A stretch of DNA of 39,856 bases, from the NCBI GenBank assembly GCA_002304435.1, contig NEUZ01000010.1, positions 1 to 39,856 of the forward strand. Direction: 5' to 3'. This stretch comes from Opitutia bacterium Tous-C8FEB. Its GTDB lineage: Bacteria; Verrucomicrobiota; Verrucomicrobiia; Opitutales; Opitutaceae. The notes below the pieces were generated by a model. The model was not told the DNA's origin. It was given only the letters and a program-made list of their open reading frames with translations, and did no database searches. Positions 24,400 through 30,362 of this stretch are shown piece by piece (position 1 is the first letter of the stretch; each line of letters begins with the position of its first letter). A program made the position numbers and the translations under genes.

Positions 24400-25815
<1,416 letters not shown>

Positions 25816-25890
25816 GGGAAGAATCGCCCTAACTGTAACAGGATCCCGGGGCGGGCGGGGAAGCCTTATTTCCGGACGGAAAGACGAAAC

Positions 25891-25916
25891 AGCCGGGACC
25901 CCGCGGGGTCCCGGCT
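25891..25916 (-). terminator. Rho-independent terminator after glnK
   Basis: A near-perfect inverted repeat (AGCCGGGACCC, loop CGCG, GGGTCCCGGCT; 11 bp stem). Read on the minus strand it is followed by GTTTCGTCTTTCC, a modest T-rich tail. It lies 23 bp after the glnK stop and should end the amt-glnK transcript before leuC. Confidence 0.8.
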
Positions 25917-25939
25917 GGTCACGCGCGCAGGCGGGGGCC

Positions 25940-26290
<351 letters not shown>

Positions 26291-26298
26291 TTAGGGGT

Positions 26299-27759
26299 TC
26301 AGCTGACGTAGCCTTCTTCGCCGTGTTCGGAGATATCCAAGCCCTGGCGTTCAGCCTCCTCGGTGGGCCGTAGGCCGATGACGGCCTTGACGATGTAGGC
26401 GATGATGGCGGTGGCGACCACCGACCAGACGATGGTGAGGGCGACGGCCTTGAGCTGGTTGGCGAGCAGGCCGTCCATCAGTTTCATCCCGTCGGGCCCG
26501 AGGACCGCGTTGGCGGCCGGATCGGCGAACACGCCGGTGAGGATGGCGCCGAGGGTGCCGCCCACACCGTGCACCCCGAAGGTGTCGAGGGAGTCGTCAT
26601 ACCCGAAGGCCTTCTTGAGGTAGGCGCAGGCGAGGAACGGAATGACCCCCGCGAAGATGCCGATGATGACCGCTGAGGTCGGGAGCACGAAGCCGGCGCC
26701 CGGGGTGATCACCACCAAGCCGGCCACGATACCGGAGCAGAAACCGAGCACGCTGGGCTTGCCGCGCAGGACCCACTCGCAAACCGCCCAGGTGAAGCCA
26801 GCGGTGGCAGCCGCGAGGGTCGTGGTCGCGAAGGCGTTGGCCGCGATGCCATCGGCGCCGAGGGCGGAGCCGGCGTTGAAGCCGTACCAGCCGACCCAGA
26901 GCATACCGGTGCCGACCATACAGAGCACCATCGAGTGCGGGGGCATCGACTCCTTACCGAAGCCCACTCGCTTGCCGAGGATGATGCAGAGCACCAAGGC
27001 GGACCAACCGGAGGTCATATGCACCACAGTCCCGCCGGCGAAGTCGATCGCCTTGATCGCAGCGTCCTTGTTAAGCGGACCGCACATCAGACCATTCGCC
27101 GCCCAGACCATGTGGGCGAAGGGGAAGTAAACGAGGAACATCCAGAGCGCCACGAACACGAGCACCGCGAGGAACTTCATCCGCTCGGCGATCGCGCCCA
27201 CGATGAGCGCAGGGGTGATGATGGCAAAACTCAGCTGGAACATCGACCACATCATATCGCTGATCCAGTGGTAGCCGGCGCCGGTCTTACCAGCCTCCAC
27301 GCCGGTCAGGAATTTCGCGGCGGTGTCGCCAATGATCGCGTTGCCCCCAGAGAAAGCGAGACTGTAGCCCACCGCCCACCAGAGGATCGTGACCAGCCCG
27401 GCGATGCCCATGCACTGGGCGAGCACCGAGAGGACATTCTTGCGCCGGACTAGGCCGCCATAGAAAAGCGCGAGGCCGGGCAGCGTCATAAAAATGACGA
27501 GCGCGGTGCTCACCATCTGCCACGCGTTGTGGCCGGGACCGGGACCGGGGATCTTCGAGGCGACGTCCGGCGTGCGGGCGCCGTTGTTCACGTAGGCCTC
27601 TAGGTCCGCGATGCGCTGCTCCATCGTGGGCTCCTTCGGGGCGGGCGGCGCCGCGGGCGCGGCGGGCGCGGGGGTTTGGGCGGACAGCGATCCCCAGCAA
27701 AGCCCGGCAAGCAGGGCGAGGAGCGCGAACGGCTTCATTCGACGAATACAGGTGGACAT
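26299..27759 (-). CDS. amt: Ammonium transporter
   Basis: A 486-residue Amt/Rh-family channel with a cleavable-looking signal (to about SAQ28), an Ala/Pro-rich stretch, and eleven membrane helices. The pore histidines are His247 (TVVHMTSGWSALV) and His397 (FGVHGVGGTLGA). The Amt signature FGKRVGFGKESMPPHS-like region and the cytosolic C-terminal tail (EEAERQGLDISEHGE), which P-II binds, are present. ATG 27759 is used; ATG 27738, seven codons in, is an alternative start that also gives a full signal peptide. A sigma-54 promoter lies about 100 bp upstream. Confidence 0.93.
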   Translation of the reverse strand: MSTCIRRMKPFALLALLAGLCWGSLSAQTPAPAAPAAPPAPKEPTMEQRIADLEAYVNNGARTPDVASKIPGPGPGHNAWQMVSTALVIFMTLPGLALFYGGLVRRKNVLSVLAQCMGIAGLVTILWWAVGYSLAFSGGNAIIGDTAAKFLTGVEAGKTGAGYHWISDMMWSMFQLSFAIITPALIVGAIAERMKFLAVLVFVALWMFLVYFPFAHMVWAANGLMCGPLNKDAAIKAIDFAGGTVVHMTSGWSALVLCIILGKRVGFGKESMPPHSMVLCMVGTGMLWVGWYGFNAGSALGADGIAANAFATTTLAAATAGFTWAVCEWVLRGKPSVLGFCSGIVAGLVVITPGAGFVLPTSAVIIGIFAGVIPFLACAYLKKAFGYDDSLDTFGVHGVGGTLGAILTGVFADPAANAVLGPDGMKLMDGLLANQLKAVALTIVWSVVATAIIAYIVKAVIGLRPTEEAERQGLDISEHGEEGYVS

Positions 27760-27859
27760 GCGCGTGGTGGTTGGGTTTGAGGGCCTGAACAACCGGCCGC
27801 ACGGGGAACAGACCCCATTTGGCCGGAGTGGGACCGCAGGGCGGGCCCGACCTTCCTTA

Positions 27860-27875
27860 AGCACGCCCCGTGCCA
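27860..27875 (-). promoter_or_regulatory. Sigma-54 promoter (-24/-12) of amt-glnK
   Basis: Minus-strand TTGGCACG, four bases, then GTGCT matches the RpoN consensus YTGGCACG-N4-TTGCW at all positions except the first of the -12 box. The GG and GC pairs are exactly 10 bp apart. The predicted start near 27849 gives a 5' leader of about 90 nt before amt. It suggests activation by NtrC or a like protein under nitrogen limitation; I did not find a clear NtrC site. Confidence 0.75.
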
Positions 27876-28055
27876 AGGCGGCAGCGATTTTAACCACGTA
27901 CCGCACCACGGTGGCGAGACGCGGGCTCCCTCTTGAAACCCGCCTAATCCACGGCGCATCGCCGCTTCGAAAAGGCGTACCCTACGCTCGGCGAACCTCG
28001 CCGGAAATTCCGCGCGGAAAAGATCCCGTGCCGACTCCCGCCGGCGGGCCGGCCG

Positions 28056-30269
<2,214 letters not shown>

Positions 30270-30362
30270 CGTGAAGGGACGGAACCAAGGAGCTAAGCGG
30301 GCCGCGCGCGTCACCCGCAAACAGAAATTGCGTCCCGACCCCGCCCGGAAGGCGCGCCGGCC

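Follow-up and report, generated by a model that had tools for sequence, protein, structure and literature searches.

Does the -24/-12-type element in front of the ammonium transporter gene amt in this stretch of DNA (the window, 39,856 nucleotides) belong to a genuine sigma-54 (RpoN) promoter, and which activator would then open it? The locus lies on the minus strand, in the order aspS (28482..30320), a first P-II gene (P-II#1, 28056..28394), a 296-bp gap holding the site, amt (26299..27759), a second P-II gene in the glnK position downstream of amt (P-II#2, 25940..26278), and an intrinsic terminator-like hairpin with a T-rich tail (25890..25917). Profile matches identified both P-II genes as well as aspS, which is also the upstream neighbour of the first P-II gene in several relatives. 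The amt gene, whose product has an N-terminal extension, scored 428.1 bits against TIGR00836 (cut-off 343.3), and with an Amt gene above its family cut-off and a P-II gene adjoining it, the locus has the makeup of an amtB-glnK operon. The gap runs from the end of P-II#1 at 28056 to the probable amt start, an ATG at 27759(-), whose context (gcgcATGtcc) the window genome shares with its four closest relatives.

The element upstream of amt

Read directly, minus-strand positions 27876-27860 are T-TGGCACG-GGGC-GTGCT. In the element itself (TGGCACGGGGCGTGCT, 27860..27875, minus strand), which can also be described as TGGCACG-N5-TGCT at 27875-27860, exactly ten bases separate GG from GC, as in the invariant GG-N10-GC pattern, and the TGGCAC and TTGCW flanks of the general consensus are present with one mismatch. 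The near-consensus sigma-54 site that the initial annotation had placed upstream of amt, with one mismatch and this spacing, is borne out by that reading. It is the sole match in the window to TGGCAC-N5-TTGCW with at most one mismatch. Because 0.71 (sd 0.77) such matches are expected per window by chance, the sequence alone is weak evidence, and the motif by itself, without conservation, is not significant in the window; this expectation would suit a fortuitous match in a GC-rich genome, with amt served by a different promoter or by transcripts reading through from aspS-P-II#1. Narrower patterns gave lower expectations. TGGCAYN6TGCT, which belongs to a lineage pattern (GGCAY/TGGCAY-N6-TGCT type) fitted after the first scoring scan, occurs once in the window against 0.15 expected, and the stricter TGGCACG-N5-TGCT, composed only after the site was seen, is expected 0.02 times per window. 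Throughout the 2.17-Mb genome of the window (96 contigs, 70% complete), TGGCAYN6TGCT was found twice, versus 15 times for the same pattern read backwards, and the motif was rarer than its reversed control in all 12 genomes inspected (range 5 vs 39 to 41 vs 44). The other copy in the window genome (L121:1501-1516) matches the consensus and is followed after 46 nt by the ATG of a gene whose product looks secreted and ends in VPDRG..RRRR; some 100-140 bp upstream of this copy is an inverted repeat (AAGTGTAA/TTACACTT). The protein appears PEP-CTERM-like by eye; this label, taken from a reading of the C-terminus, was set aside, NCBIfam having assigned no family.

Our preferred reading, with a probability of about 0.92, is that the element is a genuine sigma-54 promoter driving the amt-P-II#2 unit. 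RpoN-RNA polymerase would bind the -24/-12 element and wait as a closed complex until, under nitrogen shortage, a phosphorylated NtrC-type AAA+ activator hydrolyses ATP and opens it. With the C of GC at 27861 taken as -12, the predicted transcription start (+1) falls at 27849 on the minus strand, followed by a predicted 90-nt leader (27760..27849) up to the conserved ATG. Transcription would proceed from about 27849(-) through amt and P-II#2, and may end at the hairpin at 25917-25890. That transcription depends on RpoN, that it responds to nitrogen, where it starts and which activator it uses are all inferred. A structured leader was considered and dismissed, the fold being unremarkable (z -0.80) and the window having no Rfam match at gathering scores.

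The promoter could be real and amt could at the same time receive read-through from upstream of aspS or P-II#1, in which case sigma-54 would only boost a basal level of amt expression. The three genes aspS, P-II#1 and amt are co-directional, separated by roughly 90 and 300 bp, and a simple pattern scan of the interval between P-II#1 and amt gave nothing resembling a terminator. Such read-through is putative, and we regard it as rather unlikely. In 25700-28700, the scan found one terminator pattern where 1.8 were expected in shuffles, and it is by position only, behind P-II#2, that the hairpin counts as a possible terminator.

Conservation before amt and glutamine synthetase genes

Window-only statistics are insufficient to reject a chance origin of the element; we reject it because the motif is conserved in relatives. 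The amt matches among named genomes place the window with Opitutaceae-like Verrucomicrobiota. When more distant Opitutaceae are aligned, no long stretch before the amt start is invariant apart from the -24/-12 element. We then considered 57 genomes around the window, which share ancestry and 46 of which carry amt. In 40 of these 46 genomes, one or more of the examined amt genes are preceded by GGCAYN6TGCW, a count made without a separate spacing control. The retrieved stretches contain 77 amt genes and not every copy (for example, one of three in G043); 52 of the 77 have the motif upstream. By this pattern, the motif is missing at 25 of the 77 genes and at every examined amt copy in six of the 46 genomes.

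A spacing control came from 225 upstream regions, mostly of Verrucomicrobiota and clustered down from 241, from which gene starts less than 300 nt from a locus end and matches below 45% identity were excluded. The N6 spacing gave 87 matches, against 8 for N3-N5 and N7-N9 together (seven of them at N3), and N6 was matched once on the antisense strand and not at all in the first 300 nt of the genes; a gene-body control of 600 nt overran short P-II genes, giving N6 matches (19 and 10). By class, GGCAY-N6-TGCW precedes 30/46 leading amt genes, 31/69 amt genes behind P-II and 3/3 amt genes behind amt, together with 23/51 leading P-II genes and 0/6 P-II genes behind P-II; the count of 0/50 for P-II genes behind amt carries little weight, these regions being short (mean 61 nt). 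In many P-II-first loci, the motif precedes P-II rather than amt. Tandem arrays of two or three amt plus P-II genes were observed in Opitutaceae (L136, L138 and L145-L150), where most amt genes have a motif of their own; on the other hand, amt directly behind the first P-II gene is without it in L134, L137, L141, L142, L146 and L150. At the base scored as a mismatch in the initial annotation, 86 sites divide into 30 with C, 27 with T, 23 with G and 6 with A. This position is variable in the lineage, whose consensus is TGGCAY-N6-TGCT, and this consensus can be used for regulon annotation in a little-studied phylum.

Furthermore, the motif is found before glutamine synthetase genes. The sequence TGGCACGRAAGGTGCT precedes such a gene in the four closest relatives for which a glnA contig is available; the best NCBIfam match of its product is GlnII, at 375.4 bits and under the cut-off of 500, and the enzyme is referred to here as GSII-like. 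All 30 examined upstream regions of GSII-type glnA (30 loci returned, from 38 genomes with a matching gene) contain GGCAY-N6-TGCW, at a distance of about 88-137 nt from the query start, whereas six other spacings together matched in a single region. The window genome, 70% complete as assembled, yielded no glnA. GSII glnA of the relatives would thus come under the same kind of control as amt, and for most of the amt-bearing Opitutales genomes examined, ammonium uptake and glutamine synthetase would join the functions under sigma-54 control. A fortuitous match is hard to reconcile with a motif kept before both amt and glnA at one spacing, and no sigma-70-type promoter pattern (E. coli consensus) that might serve amt instead was found in 25700-28700; we hold this explanation to be highly improbable. 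In some relatives, the motif also stands before genes that we take to be flgB- and flhB-like.

RpoN and candidate activators

The initial annotation had called for rpoN and an NtrC-type activator to be confirmed in the genome. The first is present, with a match to PF04552 of 191.5 bits (cut-off 22.8). Among the 57 genomes, rpoN was found in 54 and not found in G009, G017 and G048; G009 (93% complete) has no rpoN match yet carries the motif before amt and glnA, and its missing rpoN is presumably an assembly gap. As to the second, receiver-AAA+ activators are present, and the one that best matches NtrC remains under the family cut-off of TIGR01818. With rpoN, such activators, and the motif before amt and GSII glnA, the proposal that amt-P-II is under sigma-54 control in this lineage has strong support.

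Four response regulators of the window genome (L002-L005) combine receiver and Sigma54_activat domains. The PF00158 domain alone is weak proof of a sigma-54 activator because all 14 control genomes, among them archaea, have matches to it as well. Activators contact sigma-54 through a GAFTGA-type loop; this loop reads GSFTGA in L002 and GAFTDA in L003, and no such motif is present in L004 and L005. Against TIGR01818 (ntrC), L002 scored highest of the four with 470.9 bits (cut-off 558.6), and it covers positions 2-384 of the 463-position profile, the C-terminal part being missing. At E 1e-135, an ortholog of L002 occurs as a single copy in 48 of the 57 genomes, and its distribution follows that of amt: 44 genomes have both, 2 amt only, 4 the ortholog only and 7 neither (Fisher 3.9e-5, without phylogeny correction). 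The motif is present in 40 of the 44 amt genomes with an ortholog, the other four having none at the examined amt genes, and it is found at 0/4 amt genes of the two genomes without one, of which one is 67% complete. We infer that L002, the best candidate, drives amt.

The activator of amt could instead be a protein bearing a helix-turn-helix (HTH) end, either L003, which retains HTH_8, or a second sigma-54 activator type with a GAFTGA loop and a Fis-like C-terminus, seen in L214-L217 and more widely, and near-universal. This L217 type is present in 52 of the 57 genomes and in 42/42 of the more complete ones (E 1e-125), and the four closest copies keep both the GAFTGA loop and the Fis-like end. 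It was not found in the incomplete genome of the window, and could sit in the missing part. Nevertheless, it does not track amt, being present in 9 of the 11 genomes without a found amt, as well as in G044, where amt is present and the motif absent; the loop of L003 departs from GAFTGA, the HTH-bearing L004 and L005 are without a GAFTGA-like motif, and L002 is the best ntrC match. The findings on the L217 type thus cut in part against L002, and its phyletic pattern in part favours L002. An HTH-bearing activator is a possibility to be taken seriously, although we lean towards L002.

In L002 itself (L002:1054-2547, G000:C34) and its orthologs L200-L203 and L249, the C-terminal HTH is replaced by a basic, Ala/Pro/Lys-rich tail. 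Pfam detected HTH_8 in 16 of 23 aligned L002 orthologs, and six of the seven without it were identified as L002, its four closest orthologs and L239. By alignment, the ortholog of G021, the sixth close genome, has the same basic tail; the C-terminal end of the G001 copy is cut off, which places it outside the tail comparison. In the six closest genomes, the DNA-binding end of the L002 activator therefore seems to be lost, and this loss looks recent because HTH_8 is retained by 16 of the 23 orthologs examined in the order. We also considered whether a frameshift conceals the HTH, and rejected this: no HTH was seen by eye in the other frames, and in all four comparisons made, third codon positions are where the tail sequences diverge most. 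In these six genomes, the DNA-binding end is gone and the promoters are retained, with the motif before amt in 5/5 genomes that have amt and before glnA in 4/4 that have glnA.

Upstream activator sites were sought as well. A scan for exact 5-bp dyads covered the regions upstream of 30 glnA and 82 amt/P-II genes and gave no convincing NtrC-type palindrome; the commonest glnA dyad, found in 6/30 regions versus 2 in mononucleotide shuffles, is GC-rich and comes from related sequences. Upstream of glnA (L260-L289), 5' of the motif, we observed two blocks, TCATGA..CTTCT in 13/30 and TGGCAAG in 17/30 regions; they occur in 0/4 window-clade genomes, one of which has only 204 nt of upstream sequence. 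As common activator sites, the blocks were discarded, with TCATGA..CTTCT at 0/32 and TGGCAAG at 2/32 amt sites (either strand). Simple searches did not find a convincing dyad common to amt and glnA, and the absence of a common upstream site fits activation from solution. In the window clade, an HTH-less NtrC-type L002 might act from solution and need no upstream sites to open the sigma-54 promoters of amt and glnA, a proposal that we consider unlikely. The same proposal would make this, by analogy and equally doubtfully, an evolutionary replay in environmental Verrucomicrobiota of the state of CtcC in Chlamydia, and it is no more than conjecture that the loss of the HTH became possible because strong sigma-54 sites had become very few. 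Were it correct, L002 would illustrate how a protein of the enhancer-binding kind can become independent of enhancers; what might surprise a specialist is the missing DNA-binding end.

The two P-II genes and known systems

The initial annotation had stated that the other P-II gene has no properly spaced site, and had suggested that GlnK is inducible and GlnB constitutive. No site scoring at least 8, an arbitrary threshold on an in-house scale with a maximum of 11.25, was detected within 450 bp upstream of P-II#1, in agreement with the first statement. Further, GGCAYN6TGCW was found in the 600 bp before the first P-II gene in 0/15 arrays beginning with P-II (21 arrays drawn). Both results agree with P-II#1 being outside sigma-54 control. 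The suggestion on GlnK and GlnB is supported only in part, by the motif-free upstream region of P-II#1, and constitutive expression of that gene is putative. The two P-II proteins of the window are 95.5% identical (5 of 112 residues differ; 89.3% DNA identity) and have identical T-loops. With 161-166 bits, both are under the NCBIfam equivalog cut-offs of PRK10665 (181) and PRK10858 (202), which we take to stand for GlnK and GlnB, respectively. In the P-II tree, first and second copies of the window clade are grouped with support of 97/96, among first-position copies and apart from most amt-linked copies of other genomes. The genes at 25940-26278 and 28056-28394 are thus likely to be recent duplicates or products of gene conversion, and any difference between them would be in expression and not in the kind of protein; the sequences are consistent with two copies of a single P-II, of which one is probably nitrogen-inducible. 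The idea that P-II#1 is a remnant of a lost upstream amt-P-II unit was abandoned, as P-II lies behind aspS in many relatives. A third, diverged P-II-like gene (L130:5096-5437, minus strand; PF00543 55.6 bits) lies behind a membrane protein that we presume to be SbtA-like, so that it is perhaps SbtB.

Taken together, the element is very probably a sigma-54 promoter of an ordinary, known kind; it is well conserved, and its lineage has seen little experimental work. Sigma-54-dependent glnK-amtB operons occur in Proteobacteria. As in those operons, a -24/-12 element precedes an amt-P-II unit and glutamine synthetase is in the same regulon; unlike in them, amt comes before P-II, a further P-II gene lies behind aspS outside the unit, the -12 part reads NTGCT, the glutamine synthetase is GSII-like, and an NtrC box was not found. 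In excerpts of a published survey, ammonia permease, PII and glutamine synthetase are sigma-54 targets mainly in Pseudomonadota, and Opitutia show a lesser sigma-54 enrichment for some nitrogen-fixation genes and motility (PMC12316311). Among the literature matches listed for Verrucomicrobiota or Opitutales with sigma-54, rpoN, NtrC, amt or glnK, none concerned this promoter. In Methylacidiphilum fumariolicum SolV, likewise verrucomicrobial but of a different lineage, the amtB transcript was three- to fourfold up in N2-fixing cells and glnK was down, not up, according to passages of that study, in which no mapped promoter is given (PMC3404531). Activators without an HTH are known from CtcC of Chlamydia and FlgR of Helicobacter, designated group 5 or type Ic in the available passages of three papers (PMC7175178, PMC3162934, PMC7482065). 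L002 has the domain composition of such group 5 bEBPs (FlgR/CtcC type), with receiver and AAA+ domains and no DNA-binding domain. Like CtcC and FlgR, it has no HTH_8; unlike in those proteins, its loss looks recent, and its suggested targets would be nitrogen genes.
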